From an uncultured Campylobacter sp. (lineage in GTDB: Bacteria; Campylobacterota; Campylobacteria; Campylobacterales; Campylobacteraceae): a stretch of 64,000 nucleotides of DNA. Each line of letters opens with the position of its first letter. The stretch's first letter is position 1. The position numbers and the translations under genes were made by a program. Below are positions 579 to 48,798 of this stretch, in pieces. The notes below the pieces were generated by a model. It made no database searches. It saw nothing but the letters and a program-made list of their open reading frames with translations, and had not been told where the DNA came from. Location of the stretch: NCBI GenBank assembly GCA_945873855.1, contig CAMCEN010000006.1:1-64000 (forward strand). Reading direction: 5' to 3'.

Positions 579-803
579 ATGAAAAAATTACTTCTAGCTA
601 TGCTAGCTAGCCTTGCCTTTGCTGCTGTGGATATTAACACAGCTAGCAAAGAAGAGCTGATGAGTTTAAAAGGCATAGGTGCTGCTAAGGCTGAAGCCAT
701 TATCGCAGCTCGTCCTTTTACAAGCACTGATGAGATTAAAAAGGTAAAAGGCATAGGCGAGGGTATTTACAATAATATCAAAGATGAGATTATTGTAAAG
801 TAA
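579..803 (+). CDS. comEA: ComEA-like periplasmic helix-hairpin-helix DNA-binding protein
   Basis: This 74-residue protein starts with a signal peptide (MKKLLLAMLASLAFA, about residues 1-15). A single ComEA-type helix-hairpin-helix pair follows: hairpins SLKGIGAAKAE (about 29-39) and KVKGIGEG (about 55-62), with the family entry motif VDINTASKEEL. In naturally competent bacteria ComEA binds incoming double-stranded DNA in the periplasm; C. jejuni Cj0011c is a similarly short exported form that affects transformation. The start is supported by AAAGGAATTAC just upstream. The gene stands alone between 5S rRNA and a long repeat tract, with a LigE-type ligase next on the same strand. Family assignment is strong; a role in competence here is by homology. 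Confidence 0.88.
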   Translation: MKKLLLAMLASLAFAAVDINTASKEELMSLKGIGAAKAEAIIAARPFTSTDEIKKVKGIGEGIYNNIKDEIIVK

Positions 804-1558
804 GCTTGTTGTGTTATGCTAGGAATTCTAGAATTTTTTGTGATGAGATCCCCCGAAGGGGTCGGGGGATGACACAAGGCTTGGGAATTCTAGAATTCCT
901 AGTAAATTTAAGTAGGAATTCTAGATTAAGAATTATAGATTTAGTCCTAGGAATTCTAAAATTTAGAAAAATCTAGAATTCCTAGCTTAAATTTAGCTAG
1001 AAAATTAGAATTCCTAGTAAATCTAAGTAGGAATTCTCTTTGGGAATTCTAGAATTCCTAGAAAAATTGCTAAGAAAATCTAGAATTCTTAGTAAATCTA
1101 AGCAGGAATTCTAGATTAGGAATTTTAGAATTCCTAGGCTTTTTTTGGGAGGTGGGGGTATTTTTTAGGAATTCTAGTTTAAGAATTCTAGAATCCCTAG
1201 TAAATATTAAGTAGGAATTCTAGATTAGGAATTTTAGAATTCCTAGGCTTTTTGGGGGTTGGGGGGTATTTTTTTAGCTTAGGAATTTTTATAATTCCCT
1301 GTCACCCCTCAGCTTAACTGGGGAATCTCTATATGGAATTCTAGAATTCTTTGTGATGAGATCCCCCGAAGGGGTCGGGGATGATACAAGGCAGTCAAGG
1401 TGAATAATTTTTATAGAGATTGTCCGTAGGGGCCGGACAATGACAAAAGTGGTTGGGAATTTTGGAATTCCTAAAAGATGCCCCCTGACCCCCAGAAAAC
1501 TAGTTGCCAAGTGAGTTGGTTTAGGGAATTTTAATTTATGAATTTTAGTTTTTAAATT
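804..1558. repeat. Dense palindromic repeat tract with no gene
   Basis: These 755 bp hold no convincing gene. They are packed with GGAATTCTAGAATTCC and its halves: perfect copies at 884-899 and 1043-1058, and partial copies near 915, 945, 971, 1029, 1106, 1122, 1170, 1213, 1229 and 1335. Interspersed are REP-like GAGATCCCCCGAAGGGG hairpins (841-880, 1352-1392), a degenerate relative at 1300-1336 and a GC-rich stem at 1411-1448. A motif GGGGGTATTTTT-like (about 1150 and 1265) recurs beside the palindromes. Confidence 0.9.
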
Positions 1559-2374
1559 ATGAAATTTTTATTTTTAATAATACTTAATGTAATATTTGCA
1601 AATGCTGCAATGCTGCTTAAAAACTACGATGGCAGAGAGCTTTCTGGCTGGGTGATGAGCCAAAAGTATGATGGCGTGCGAGCTATCTGGGATGGAAAAA
1701 AGCTAAAATCACGCCAAGGCAAAGAGTTTTGTGCCCCAAAAAGCTTCATTTCACAGCTGCCGCCTTTTAGCATTGATGGCGAGCTCTACGCTGGGACAGG
1801 AGCTTTTGAAAAAACCGCTAGCATCACCGCGCGCTGCGATGAGGACTGGGGCGAGCTTGATTTCCTTATCTTTGATGCGCCAGAAATCAAGGGCGATTTG
1901 CCCACTAGACTAGCACCGCTTAAGGACTTTTTAGCCAAAAATCAAGGCTCGCAAATAAAAATCATAGAACAAATAAAAATAAAAAGTACAAAAGAGGCTT
2001 TTGATTATCTAGATAAAATCACAGCTGGTGGCGGCGAGGGCGTAGTCGTGCGTGACCCAAATGCGCCTTATAAAGACAGTCGCCAAAGCAGCATAATGAA
2101 GCTAAAAAAGTTTTACGACGCTGAGTGCGAGGTAGTTGGCATAAAGCCACGAAAAGATGAAAATAGCGTGGTTGGCTCTGTGGAGTGCAAGGACAGTAAA
2201 AATACCTTTAAAATCGGCTCTGGCTTTGGCAGCCTAAAAATCTGTAAAGGGGCAACCCCAGAAGAAAACTGCCTTAAGACCGGCGATATCATCACCTACA
2301 AATACCAAAATCTAACCAAAAATAAAAAACCTCGCTTTGGAGTGTTTTTGAGAAAAAGAACTGATTTGCGCTAA
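1559..2374 (+). CDS. ligE: Exported ATP-dependent DNA ligase, LigE type
   Basis: This 271-residue protein has a signal peptide (about residues 1-17, ending ANA) and then a minimal ATP-dependent DNA ligase. Visible nucleotidyltransferase motifs: KYDGVR with the adenylated lysine at 36, DGELYAG (73-79), FLIFDAP (102-108), EGVVVRD (160-166) and KLKKFYDAE (181-189), followed by an OB-fold region. Length and lack of extra domains match the LigE group of Haemophilus, Neisseria and Campylobacter (C. jejuni Cj1669c), thought to seal nicks in the periplasm, perhaps on incoming DNA. It uses ATP, so an energy source outside the cytoplasm is an open question for the family. The start is ATG in an AT-rich leader with no strong Shine-Dalgarno. 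It lies between two repeat tracts and 755 bp from comEA. Confidence 0.9.
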   Translation: MKFLFLIILNVIFANAAMLLKNYDGRELSGWVMSQKYDGVRAIWDGKKLKSRQGKEFCAPKSFISQLPPFSIDGELYAGTGAFEKTASITARCDEDWGELDFLIFDAPEIKGDLPTRLAPLKDFLAKNQGSQIKIIEQIKIKSTKEAFDYLDKITAGGGEGVVVRDPNAPYKDSRQSSIMKLKKFYDAECEVVGIKPRKDENSVVGSVECKDSKNTFKIGSGFGSLKICKGATPEENCLKTGDIITYKYQNLTKNKKPRFGVFLRKRTDLR

Positions 2375-2975
2375 GTTTTATTTGCCAAAGAGTTAGTTTT
2401 TCTGGGGGTTAGGGGGTGTCTTTTATCTTAGGGAATTTTAGAATTCTCTACTTTGTCATCCCCCAGCCCCCCCCTTTTTTTTGGGGGGATCTCTATATGG
2501 AATTCTAGAATTTTCGTCATTGCGAGCGAAGCAAAGCAATCTCTAGGAATTCTAGAATTATGCTCGCTTTAGTGGGGTAAGCCCCACTGCTCGCAAATTT
2601 TATAAGGGCTACGCCCTAACCCTTAGGACCCCTAAAACCCCCGCTAAAATCTAGAATTCTCTTGCTTTATCTGCGTTTTTGGGGGAATTCTAAATTTATC
2701 CTTGGGAATTCTAAATTTTGCTTAAAAGAAACCCCCTAACCCCCAGAAAACTAGAATTCCTAGAGATTGCTTTGGTCGCTTTGCTCTCCCCTCAATGACG
2801 GAATTTTAAATGAGATCCCCCGATCAAGTCGGGGGATGACACAAGGCATGTCGGGATGACATAAGTAATAAAGGCGGGTGATTTTTATAGAGATTACTTC
2901 GGTCGCTTTGCTCCCCCCTCAATGACGGAATTTTAGAATTCCTAGAATTCGCTAAAAGAGCAGCACAAAAAACTA
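2375..2975. repeat. Mixed REP-like and GAATTC repeat tract with no gene
   Basis: About 600 bp without a credible gene. It contains GTCATCCCCC...GGGGGATCTC palindromes (2454-2496, 2811-2850), GTCATTGCGAGCGAAGC...GCAATCTC elements in both orientations (2515-2552, 2761-2800, 2898-2932), a GGGGTAAGCCCC hairpin (about 2573-2584), a GGGCTACGCCC stem (about 2607) and many GAATTC half-sites. Several of these families alternate head to tail, as though they inserted into or duplicated beside one another. Confidence 0.85.
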
Positions 2976-3519: not shown

Positions 3520-3876
3520 TTAATTCATAGGTCTTGCTGGGCAGTTTCCGACTTTGCAATTTGGCATTTTAGCACCTCTCATAAATACCTTGCAAGCAGA
3601 TGGATAAAACTCCTCGTCTTTGCCAAGCTTAGCCATGTTTTGGCGCATTTCGTATTTGTATTCTTTGCGGAATTTTTTTGCGTCTGCTTCGCTCATGTCT
3701 TTTGTAGCATCCATCATTAAAGCTTGTTTTTGCTCGCAGATTTTACCAAGTTTTTGCATTAGCTCGCTTGCTTGTTTATTTAGCTCAAAGCTTTTTGCCG
3801 CTACATCCTTAGCATCAGCACCAAAGGCAAAACTAGCAAGTAAAGCACTTGCAACAATGATTTTTAGATTTTTCAT
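3520..3876 (-). CDS. Small periplasmic protein, unknown
   Basis: A 118-residue protein with a clear signal peptide (MKNLKIIVASALLASFAFGA, cleaved near residue 20-22). The mature part is helical and lysine-rich with cysteines near residue 47 and three more in the last 26 residues, including CKVGNCP. Cysteine spacing suggests a disulfide or metal site at the C-terminus. AAAGGAGAAAAC lies directly upstream of the ATG, a strong ribosome-binding site. I know of no function; small exported Cys-containing proteins of this type are common in Campylobacter. Confidence 0.8.
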   Translation of the reverse strand: MKNLKIIVASALLASFAFGADAKDVAAKSFELNKQASELMQKLGKICEQKQALMMDATKDMSEADAKKFRKEYKYEMRQNMAKLGKDEEFYPSACKVFMRGAKMPNCKVGNCPARPMN

Positions 3877-29324: not shown

Positions 29325-30581
29325 ATGAAAGTTTTGATAATAGGAAATGGCGGGCGTGAATACGCTATTGCTAGAAGACTAAAAAATGATGGTTGCGAGC
29401 TTTTTGTAGCACCGGGTAATGCTGGGACTGCAAAAATCGCTACAAATGTTGATATAAAGGGCTTTGATGAGCTTGCTACTTGGGCAAAGGATAATAAAAT
29501 CGAGCTTTGCGTAGTTGGCCCTGAAAATGCTCTAAGCGATGGTGTGGTTGATATTTTCAAAAGTCATGGGCTAAATATCTTTGGCCCTAGCAAGGCAGCA
29601 GCTAGATTAGAGGGCTCAAAGGCCTTTATGAAGGAGTTTTTAGCTCGCCAAAATATCCGCACAGCACGTTTTATAAACACGCATGATAAAGCAGAAGCAA
29701 ATGAGTTTATTGAAGCAATTTTTAATGGCGGAAATCGCAAAATCGTAGTAAAAGCTGATGGGCTCTGTGCTGGAAAAGGCGTGATAATCGCTTCTAGCGC
29801 AGATGAGGCAAAAAGGGCAGCTGCTGATATGCTAAGTGGTGCTAGCTTTGGTGATGCTGGCAAAAGAGTGGTGATTGAGGAGTTTTTAGACGGCTTTGAG
29901 CTAAGCTTTTTTGCTATTTGTGATGGCAAAAACTTCGTTAGTCTGCCAGTAGCCCAAGATCATAAAAGACTAAAAGATAACGATGAGGGCCCAAATACTG
30001 GTGGCATGGGGGCTTATGCGCCAAGTATGCTAGCAAATGCAGCTCTTATTACTAGAGTAGAAAATGAGATTGTTCGCCCTACGCTTGATGGTATGAGCCG
30101 TGAGGGCGCGCCTTTTTGTGGAGTGCTTTTTGTAGGGCTTATGGTAGTTGGCGATACGCCTTATGTGCTTGAGTTTAATGTGCGTTTTGGCGATCCTGAG
30201 TGTGAGGTGCTAATGCCTTTGATCGAAGGAAATTTTGCAAAAACTCTGCTAAATGCAGCGCAAGGTAAGCTAGAAGATATCAAGCTTGCTGGTAAATTTG
30301 CTGTGGGTGTGGTGATGGCAAGCCATAACTATCCATATGGCGCAAGTAAGCCAGCACAAATTTTTGTAGAAAACGAACCTGAGGGCTCTCACATCTGCTA
30401 CGCAGGCGTTAGCGATGATGCTGGCAAGCTAGTAGCAAGTGGAGGGCGAGTTTTAGTGGCTGTGGGACTAGGCACTAGTATAGAAGCAGCACAGGCTAAG
30501 GCCTACGAGCTGGTTGGTAAAATCAGCTTTGAGGGTGCGCAGTGGCGCAAAGATATAGCCTATCAAGCATTAAGAAAATAA
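29325..30581 (+). CDS. purD: Phosphoribosylamine-glycine ligase
   Basis: A 418-residue ATP-grasp enzyme joining phosphoribosylamine and glycine in purine synthesis. The N-terminal [13 protein letters not shown] (about 7-19) binds [59 protein letters not shown] and [10 protein letters not shown] are the GARS signatures. AAAAGGATAAAA lies before the ATG, directly after the structured RNA. Length is normal. Confidence 0.97.
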
Positions 30582-30930
30582 AATTACTCAGGAATTCTAG
30601 AATTCCTAGAAGCAAAATCTAGAATTCCTAGGACTTAAATCTAGAATTCCATAAACTAGAATTCCATAAACTAGAATTCCTTAAACTAGAATTCCTTAAA
30701 CTAGAATTACTTAAACTAAAATTCCCAATCTAGAATTCCTAGAGTTAAATCTAAAATTCCTTAAACTAAAACTACTAATCTAGAATTCCTTAAACTAGAA
30801 TTACTTAAACTAGAATTCCATAAACTAGAATTCCATAAACTAGAATTCCTAAAACTAGAATTCCTAGGGCTTAAATACCCCCTAACCCCCAAAATCTAGA
30901 ATTCCTAGAATCAAAATCTAGAATTCCTTG
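30582..30930. repeat. Two 15-bp-period tandem arrays of GAATTC half-sites
   Basis: After a perfect palindrome at 30591-30606, the unit CTAGAATTCCATAAA repeats at exact 15-bp steps starting at 30641, 30656, 30671, 30686, 30701 and 30716, and again at 30780, 30795, 30810, 30825, 30840 and 30855. Variants alternate CATAAA and CTTAAA. A GGGGGTTAGGGGG-like GC-rich phrase (complement) sits at about 30876-30893, as next to other arrays. No gene is seen. It is not CRISPR: there are no spacers. Confidence 0.95.
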
Positions 30931-31018
30931 AAAAAATCACGAAAATTTTCTAAAAATAAAGCAATTCAAAGCAAAATCTGCTAAAATACAGCTTTAAATA
31001 TTTTTGATTGGGTAAAAA

Positions 31019-31471
31019 ATGAAGAGTATCGCTGAACGCTTAGAGCGTGAAAATATCAGGCTCGCAAGCTTTAATAAACGCTTGTTTGCGTATTTGATCG
31101 ATGATGTGATTATCTCGGCGCTATTTTTTGTGATATATTATGATGCGTTTAAAAACGCTGCTAGCGATGCGCAGACGATGATAGCTGTGATAAACTCGTT
31201 TATCTGGCAATTAGTGCTTTTAAAGGTGCTTTATCATACATTTTTTGTGTGGCGATACGGCGCAAGTCTTGGAAAAATCGTAATGAAAATCATGGTGCTA
31301 GATGGCGAAATTTTAGACTTTCCAAGCCTACCAAAGGCACTGATTAGAGCTTGCGTGCGGATTATAAGCGAGTGGTGTTTTTATCTAGGATTTATCTGGA
31401 TGCTAGGAAATGCTGCTAAGCAAAGCTGGCATGATAAACTAAGTGGGACTATTGTTTGTGAAAATAAATAA
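31019..31471 (+). CDS. RDD family membrane protein
   Basis: A 150-residue protein with the RDD layout: RLFAYLIDDVIISALFFVIYY (about 21-41) has the Arg and Asp-Asp residues, a second span lies at about 55-75, and ASLGKIVMKIMVLDG (about 81-95) is the usual loop; WHDKLSGTIV closes. RDD proteins are inner-membrane proteins of poorly known role, some linked to Na+/H+ exchange. It overlaps lptD, so the two are coupled; a link with outer-membrane biogenesis is only positional. Confidence 0.82.
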   Translation: MKSIAERLERENIRLASFNKRLFAYLIDDVIISALFFVIYYDAFKNAASDAQTMIAVINSFIWQLVLLKVLYHTFFVWRYGASLGKIVMKIMVLDGEILDFPSLPKALIRACVRIISEWCFYLGFIWMLGNAAKQSWHDKLSGTIVCENK

Positions 31472-36692: not shown

Positions 36693-37463
36693 ATGGATAT
36701 GGCTACCTTGCTGGGAATGATATTATCAGTTACCAGTATCTCTATCGGCGACATTTTGGAGGGTGGTAACCCACTGCATGTTATTCACCTAAGCTCTTGT
36801 ATGATCGTGATCCCAACGGCGATGTTTTCGTCTATGACAGCTACAAACAAACGCTATGTTGGTCCAGCTTTTAAAGAGCTTGGCTTAGTTTTTAAAGGTG
36901 CTGGCGTGGATCTAAACAAGCGCATTGAAGAGCTTGTTGGCTACTCGCAAGTCGCTAGAAAAGACGGAATTCTAGCTCTAGAAGCAAAGGCAGCTAACAT
37001 TGATAATGAGTTTTTAAAAACCGGTCTTAGCATGCTAGTTGATGGCCAGCCAATAGATGAGGTAAAAGAAAACCTTGAGCTTGAGATGGAAGTAACTGAG
37101 GAGTATTACCACGAGTGTGCGCACTTTTGGATACGAACAGGAGAGAGTTGCCCTACATTTGGACTAGTTGGAGCCGTTATGGGTCTAATGCTTGCGCTTC
37201 AGCTACTTGATAACCCACAGGCGATGGCAGCTGGTATTGCGGGTGCCTTTACAGCGACGGTTACTGGAATTATGGGTGCGTATGCGTTTTTTGGTCCGTG
37301 GGGAAATAAGCTAGTTAATAACTCAAAAGACATTATCCGTGAGCGTGCGCTTATCATCGAAGCATTAGTAGGCATCGCAGAGGGCTCAAACCCACGCAAC
37401 TTAGAGGCGAAATTATTTAATTTCTTAGAGAAATCTCAACCTAGAGTTTCGCAGTTTAACTAA
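36693..37463 (+). CDS. motA: Flagellar motor stator protein MotA
   Basis: A 256-residue membrane protein with four spans (about 1-22, 33-52, 150-175, 185-205) and a large cytoplasmic loop. CPTFGLVGAVMGLMLAL and TATVTGIMGAYAFFGPWGNKL are the MotA/TolQ/ExbB-type pore helices. With MotB it conducts protons to drive the flagellum. A GGAATTCTAG half-site lies in-frame as DGILALEA near residue 90. The start at 36693 has only AAGGCTTT upstream. motB begins 2 bp after the stop. Confidence 0.95.
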   Translation: MDMATLLGMILSVTSISIGDILEGGNPLHVIHLSSCMIVIPTAMFSSMTATNKRYVGPAFKELGLVFKGAGVDLNKRIEELVGYSQVARKDGILALEAKAANIDNEFLKTGLSMLVDGQPIDEVKENLELEMEVTEEYYHECAHFWIRTGESCPTFGLVGAVMGLMLALQLLDNPQAMAAGIAGAFTATVTGIMGAYAFFGPWGNKLVNNSKDIIRERALIIEALVGIAEGSNPRNLEAKLFNFLEKSQPRVSQFN

Positions 37464-48243: not shown

Positions 48244-48798
48244 ATGTGGAATGCTATAGCCACTTTTCTTACAAATAGCTCGGCTATTACTATTATAGTG
48301 ATAGCTTGGCTATCTGTTTATTTTATTTTGAGTTTTACTATTTTGCTTTCACGCTATTTAGCACTTGGTGTTTGGAGAGCAAAGGAACAATCAGCTTTAG
48401 AGAGTATTTTGATTGGTGGCAAGATAGAAAACACAAGTTCAGTGCTAAAAAAATGCAGTAGTAGCGTAAATAAAGAAAAACTAGATGTTTACATCGGCTT
48501 AGCTGAGAGTAGATCTACTAGCGGGCTTACATTGCTTGCTATAGTAGCTTCTACTTCGCCTTTTATAGGGCTTTTTGGTACTGTGGTGGGAATTCTAGAA
48601 ACCTTTGCTGACTTAGGCGATGGAACAGGTGGTATAAATGCTATTGCTCGTTCTATCTCAGAAGCTTTGGTGGCTACTGGATGCGGTATTTTTGTAGCGA
48701 TTCCAGCTTATAGCTTCAATCTTTTGATTAAACGCAAAGCCTATGAAATTTTAAGTCTAATAAAGCGTGAAGCTAGTGTACTTTTAAGTAACAAATGA
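48244..48798 (+). CDS. exbB: ExbB/TolQ-type proton channel protein
   Basis: A 184-residue membrane protein with three spans (about 12-38, 98-120, 138-160). The signature TSPFIGLFGTVVGILETFADL (about 102-122) and ISEALVATGCGIFVAIPAY (about 138-156) line the channel. With ExbD/TolR it uses the proton gradient to power TonB or TolA. GGAATTCTAG within the frame encodes the GIL of VVGILETF. Being next to tolB supports a Tol role. Confidence 0.93.
   Translation: MWNAIATFLTNSSAITIIVIAWLSVYFILSFTILLSRYLALGVWRAKEQSALESILIGGKIENTSSVLKKCSSSVNKEKLDVYIGLAESRSTSGLTLLAIVASTSPFIGLFGTVVGILETFADLGDGTGGINAIARSISEALVATGCGIFVAIPAYSFNLLIKRKAYEILSLIKREASVLLSNK

Follow-up and report, generated by a model that had tools for sequence, protein, structure and literature searches.

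Haemophilus and Neisseria recognise their own DNA by DNA "passwords". Known uptake words, the USS of the Pasteurellaceae and the DUS of the Neisseriaceae, are mostly not palindromes (PMC1939737). In Neisseria and Haemophilus, 35-65% of the uptake words lie in coding DNA, a larger share than in the genome described here, and the uptake sequences of Pasteurellaceae evolve by point mutation (PMC7811141). In Campylobacter jejuni, no uptake sequence had been identified by 2012 (PMC3458841); DNA uptake in this species needs RAATTY sites that the D12 methylase CtsM has methylated (PMC8627207, PMC4294202, PMC8468864; one of the three gives the CtsM site as RATTY).

The window (the whole stretch of DNA that was analysed, 64,000 nucleotides of an uncultured Campylobacter sp.) begins with its contig, which opens shortly ahead of a 5S rRNA gene. 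A comEA-like gene and a gene for a LigE-type ligase follow, surrounded by palindromic repeats of one word. The features to which the text refers are:

271-387, + strand: 5S rRNA gene, end of the comEA-carrying rRNA operon (Rfam RF00001, 78 bits)
579-803, + strand: comEA-like gene, 74 aa, helix-hairpin-helix (PF12836, TIGR00426), part of the rRNA-operon repeat
804-1558: spacer with 11 half-sites GGAATTCTAG/CTAGAATTCC and 8 palindromes (up to two mismatches)
884-899: exact palindrome GGAATTCTAGAATTCC
1043-1058: exact palindrome GGAATTCTAGAATTCC
1559-2374, + strand: LigE-type ATP-dependent DNA ligase, 271 aa, with a KYDG motif and an N-terminal signal-like segment (NF006592)
2375-2975: convergent spacer with 3 half-sites, 4 palindromes (up to two mismatches) and GC-rich dispersed repeats
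30591-30930: array of the same word, richer than the 804-1558 spacer, its length differing between strains
36966-36975, + strand: coding copy GGA ATT CTA G (Gly-Ile-Leu) in the gene 36693-37463
48589-48598, + strand: coding copy GGAATTCTAG in the gene 48244-48798

We consider it probable, though well short of certain, that comEA stands beside ligE by chance and that the palindromes represent a species-specific word whose most likely role is in DNA uptake.

Distribution and placement of the word

The word, GGAATTCTAG(A), is followed by an AT-rich stretch and is often doubled as GGAATTCTAGAATTCC. In profiles, the core GGAATTCTAG is followed by A[AT]TT, and the common forms are the palindromic TAGGAATTCTAGAATTCCTA and the asymmetric TAGGAATTCTAGATTTT. 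The statistics are based on 617 kb of stretches and on whole-genome pattern counts. The top over-represented 10-mers of this genome are all pieces of the GGAATTCTAG word. With up to two mismatches, the palindrome has 1,354 copies in the 1.59-Mb genome and 1,394 in a second strain of the species, and 0-13 in each of 14 congeners. The reversed palindrome pattern, used as a control, gave 0 matches in the whole of this genome. The 14-mer GGAATTCTAGAWTT occurs 1,022 times in forward and 987 times in reverse orientation (about 2,009 in total, near-equal on the two strands) and 2,076 times in the second strain; the 151 other genomes of the family that were searched hold 0-10 copies each. The half-site is present in about 46% of random 1-kb pieces, in 95% of 5-kb pieces, and in all sampled 10-kb pieces. 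Among the genus and family genomes searched, the abundant word is restricted to this species.

The spacers flanking ligE had been called palindrome-rich in the preliminary description, and both (755 bp and 601 bp) do contain many GGAATTCTAGAATTCC-type repeats, far above chance. They had also been taken for the densest palindrome field, which is not the case. Of 11,899 sliding 755-bp windows in 617 kb of this genome, 101 were at least as rich as the 804-1558 spacer with its 11 half-sites, placing this spacer in the top 1% or so; richer ones include 30551-31305 with 15 half-sites and others with up to 16. GC-rich dispersed repeats, unrelated to the palindrome, occupy the same intergenic spaces (843-883, 1356-1396, 2516-2545, 2761-2808, 2810-2850, and 2888-2935 in the window). 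Their copies in 617 kb number 43 for CGTCATTGCGAG, 35 for GGGGGATGACA, and 29 for CCCCCTAACCCCC. They are nearly missing from one congener (G004), in which ATCCTACAAGGAT is found at least 100 times, as is AGGATTTGAAAC, a word that overlaps it; they are probably a CRISPR repeat.

Between genes, the palindromes tend to lie at gene ends and to keep clear of promoters. The share of gaps with a palindrome is 81% where the flanking genes converge, 57% where they are co-directional, and 9% where they diverge, and several palindromes begin exactly at the stop codon. About a tenth of the half-sites lay in coding DNA in our first sample. In 487 kb of coding DNA (439 genes), GGAATTCTAG was observed 125 times against 0.6 expected and its one-mismatch forms 146 times against 28 expected, the expectation being drawn from codon shuffling, which takes no account of codon-pair bias. 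The reversed control word had no exact match in this coding DNA. Most of the testable coding copies (14 of 19) align without gaps to congener orthologs, which points to their origin by point mutation. For the copy at 36966-36975, a congener reads GGC ATT CTT in the matching ungapped position; in another example, GGC ATC TTG GAG in the congener corresponds to GGA ATT CTA GAA here, both encoding GILE. The remaining 5 of 19 overlap alignment gaps, against a background of 2.5%, and some copies may have arrived with local insertions or lie where the sequence is variable. Overall, the word accumulated mostly by point mutation, a route by which mobile elements do not spread.

Two strains, about 96% identical in DNA, were compared. 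In intergenic DNA, 1.7% of site bases had changed, compared with 5.4% of the bases outside sites (P = 3e-12). In coding DNA, the sites also showed less change, but the difference was not significant (P = 0.5). Between the strains, 160 word sites were kept and 43 changed, 21 by substitution and 22 by indel; the examples touched by indels lie largely in arrays. The AT content flanking isolated sites oscillates with a period of 10.5-11 bp (beyond the 99.8th percentile of permutations). As a statistical observation, this periodicity recalls the AT-rich flanks of the Haemophilus influenzae motif.

Competence genes and the D12 methylase

The machinery that accompanies USS and DUS is present at the level of genes. 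The ComEC-type frame is free of stops, and a locus for secretin, AAA, TPR, T2SSE, and T2SSF proteins has open frames. With three comEA copies, the competence genes (ComEC, ComEA, secretin, T2SSE, and T2SSF) look intact, and competence is predicted from them.

GAATTC, a case of RAATTY, lies inside the core of the word. The genome encodes an intact D12 methylase of 362 aa that shares 56-66% identity with its homologs throughout the family. The CtsM/RAATTY system is marked by a conserved D12 methylase of about 364 aa, and the enzyme is likely the CtsM ortholog. Methylases of PF01555 formed a scattered set and were uninformative. RAATTY as a whole is not over-represented in the coding DNA of this genome (0.91, against 1.0-2.2 in relatives). 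GAATTC is the sole enriched form (4.5-5.0-fold). AAATTT stands at 0.54 here, whereas it is over-represented 1.4-3.0-fold in the coding DNA of 11 of 12 other Campylobacteraceae sampled; in this comparison, the present genome is higher in G+C, and codon shuffling ignores codon-pair bias. The pattern suggests that the species may have switched its preferred uptake site from AAATTT to GAATTC. The link between the D12 enzyme and the word is loose: in genome G083, the D12 gene is broken by stops (loci L278 and L279), yet AAATTT is still in excess (1.89). Genome G127, of another genus and with an apparently intact D12 gene, is a possible second GAATTC lineage: AAATTT stands at 0.52 and GAATTC at 2.2 (small sample); 15 GAATTC sites from this genome (40 kb and one locus) have no common extension.

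Explanations of the word and of the gene pair

Copy number, placement, coding enrichment, and conservation are as expected under molecular drive and make the word a candidate USS/DUS. For such a word, we infer preferential uptake, molecular drive, and possibly a role of methylation. The machinery of secretin, T2SSE, T2SSF, ComEA, and ComEC would prefer fragments that carry the word, and recombination of the preferred fragments would spread it where genes tolerate copies. It would settle mainly downstream of genes, and within coding sequences that allow synonymous or mild changes. As the core of the word is a RAATTY site, recognition may depend in part on its methylation by the conserved D12 enzyme. 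Several observations count against an uptake sequence. The word is usually palindromic or nearly so and no congener shares it; the coding share, the gap overlaps in 5 of 19 coding copies, and the non-significant conservation of coding sites also weigh against it. The suggestion in the preliminary description that the repeats might be the recognised sequence thus keeps part of its force, since most sequence-level hallmarks of uptake sequences are present, but the repeats are genome-wide and not local.

A more specific form of the uptake reading is put forward tentatively, and we regard it as possible without expecting it to hold. The uptake word would have arisen independently of those of Neisseriaceae and Pasteurellaceae, and GGAATTCTAGA would combine a methylated GAATTC with a fixed context, replacing the degenerate methylated RAATTY (AAATTT-rich) of the relatives. 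If true, the species would have changed its uptake dialect recently, to one that joins methyl and sequence recognition.

The main rival to an uptake sequence, which we judge unlikely, is a palindrome of the HIP type that is kept because an orphan methyltransferase acts on it and that serves recombination, chromosome organisation, or regulation rather than uptake. HIP1 of cyanobacteria contains orphan methylase sites (PMC4390886), and here, the RAATTY site in the core, the conserved D12 methylase gene, and the palindromic nature of a word that is also found in coding DNA are all consistent with such a role. It accounts poorly for the strong placement 3' of genes and for the common asymmetric form, and the D12 enzyme is family-wide, yet the word belongs to one species only.

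It is improbable that the word is a terminator or mRNA 3'-end element, its palindromes forming hairpins that end or stabilise transcripts. Enrichment downstream of genes, sometimes directly from the stop codon, and rarity in divergent gaps would fit. No T-run follows the hairpins (T 0.35; TTTT in 21%), so the palindromes are not ordinary intrinsic terminators, a candidate that was rejected on this ground; in addition, many half-sites are unpaired, and the coding copies arose by point mutation. Uptake words are known to have been co-opted as terminators, and for this reason, a terminator role need not exclude the uptake reading.

We give still less weight to a mobile palindromic element (REP- or MITE-like) spread by transposition. 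Intergenic clusters, array lengths that differ between strains, and abundance in one species only are what such an element would leave behind. Most sites are nevertheless conserved between the strains (160 against 43), the coding copies arose mostly by substitution, and a REP-type transposase (Y1/RAYT, PF01797) is absent from this genome, on which ground REP/RAYT mobility was rejected. A Chi- or KOPS-like strand-biased signal was rejected, as half-sites show no orientation bias either in the window (56 against 46) or overall.

The last explanation, now hardly credible, is that of the preliminary description, in which comEA and ligE are a functional pair and form a local competence locus with the palindromes as its own target. 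The gene assignments behind it are sound, with both genes on the + strand. The product of 579-803 matches PF12836 (E 1.7e-17) and reaches 53.1 bits for TIGR00426, exactly the cut-off of that family, with TIGR01259 under its cut-off; it is short and exported and has a helix-hairpin-helix region of the ComEA type. The product of 1559-2374 scores 259 bits for NF006592 (cut-off 200) and has invariant K36, D38, and G39 in its KYDG motif, as a minimal ATP-dependent ligase with a signal-like N-terminus and a KxDG motif should. Both families plausibly act on DNA in the periplasm, and both strains of the species have the two genes as neighbours on one strand. The spacer between them measures 755 bp here; in the second strain, it is 367 bp by coordinates. 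A small secreted-looking protein of 118 aa is encoded further along the window (3520-3876); Pfam gives it a sub-threshold, probably spurious match to the large subunit of the eukaryotic/archaeal primase.

The 5S rRNA gene (271-387) and two further comEA copies (C10:590-814 and C24:9535-9759) had been overlooked. All three comEA copies of this genome follow shortly behind a 5S gene, and their neighbours differ. The other two are 95-96% identical to the window copy and have identical 5S genes upstream; they lie at contig ends beside quite different genes. Homology across the three copies runs from at or near the contig starts, upstream of the 5S gene, into the spacer. The three comEA copies differ from one another in sequence. 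Units of this rRNA-repeat type are found at 271-803 of the window, at L019 280-814, at L020 9535-10070, and in L028-L035. In four congeners, blocks of 4.6-6.3 kb that span comEA and the end of the rRNA operon occur as two copies with 99.97-100% identity. In much of the genus, then, comEA is carried along by the rRNA unit, with some members as exceptions. Several Campylobacter genomes have two or three comEA copies through its embedding in the rRNA-operon repeat. In congener G005, comEA is doubled in a 450-bp block with no rRNA operon nearby (L024 7016-7465 and L025 8473-8922). One of these copies has two exact GGGAATTCTAGAATTCC-type palindromes at a distance of less than 3 kb; they were rejected as a lead because they are isolated and comEA is unlinked to the rRNA operon there.

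All 16 genomes of the genus have comEA, and all 16 have ligE, which is single wherever contig ends do not split the gene. In the congeners, the two genes are unlinked and far apart, and comEA is rrn-linked in several of them. In the present genome, only one comEA copy adjoins ligE. As comEA travels with the rRNA unit and a single one of the three units places it next to ligE, the neighbourhood is accidental, and the local competence locus was rejected. The preliminary description had named a lack of co-occurrence between the repeat and these genes as a refutation of the locus; they do not co-occur, since the genes are in 16 of 16 genomes and the abundant repeat is in one species.

Comparison with known systems

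ComEA (of the Cj0011c type) and LigE have here the domain content expected of both families; comEA differs in its three copies within rRNA units, and a functional link of ligE to it is unsupported. HIP1 (GCGATCGC), whose function is debated, is likewise a genome-wide palindrome; it contains orphan methyltransferase sites, and the present word contains a RAATTY site on which the D12 enzyme may act. The same octamer is found in many cyanobacteria, whereas the present word belongs to one species, sits 3' of genes, and has a common asymmetric form. With the CtsM/RAATTY system of C. jejuni, the word shares GAATTC, and the genome shares a conserved D12 methylase that is about equally long, but one long fixed context dominates here, and AAATTT is not over-represented.

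The likeness to USS and DUS is more extensive. It comprises a word of 9-12 bp with over a thousand copies in both orientations, an excess of near matches to the consensus, a bias towards non-coding DNA and inverted pairs at the ends of genes, and coding copies that arose by point mutation, here for a majority only (14 of 19). AT-rich flanks are shared with the USS of Haemophilus. Unlike in USS and DUS, most of which are not palindromes, the core here is largely palindromic (the palindromic and asymmetric forms are both common), the intergenic bias is stronger, and a T-run is lacking. The word is known by its sequence, in one species of a phylum for which the literature consulted has no such word. 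The cases described there are those of the Pasteurellaceae and Neisseriaceae, and an uptake word in Campylobacter would be new. A word found in one species and missing from its congeners would allow one to ask how such words begin and would address whether molecular drive alone suffices. It would also relate the methylation-based discrimination of C. jejuni to the sequence-based discrimination of Haemophilus and Neisseria.
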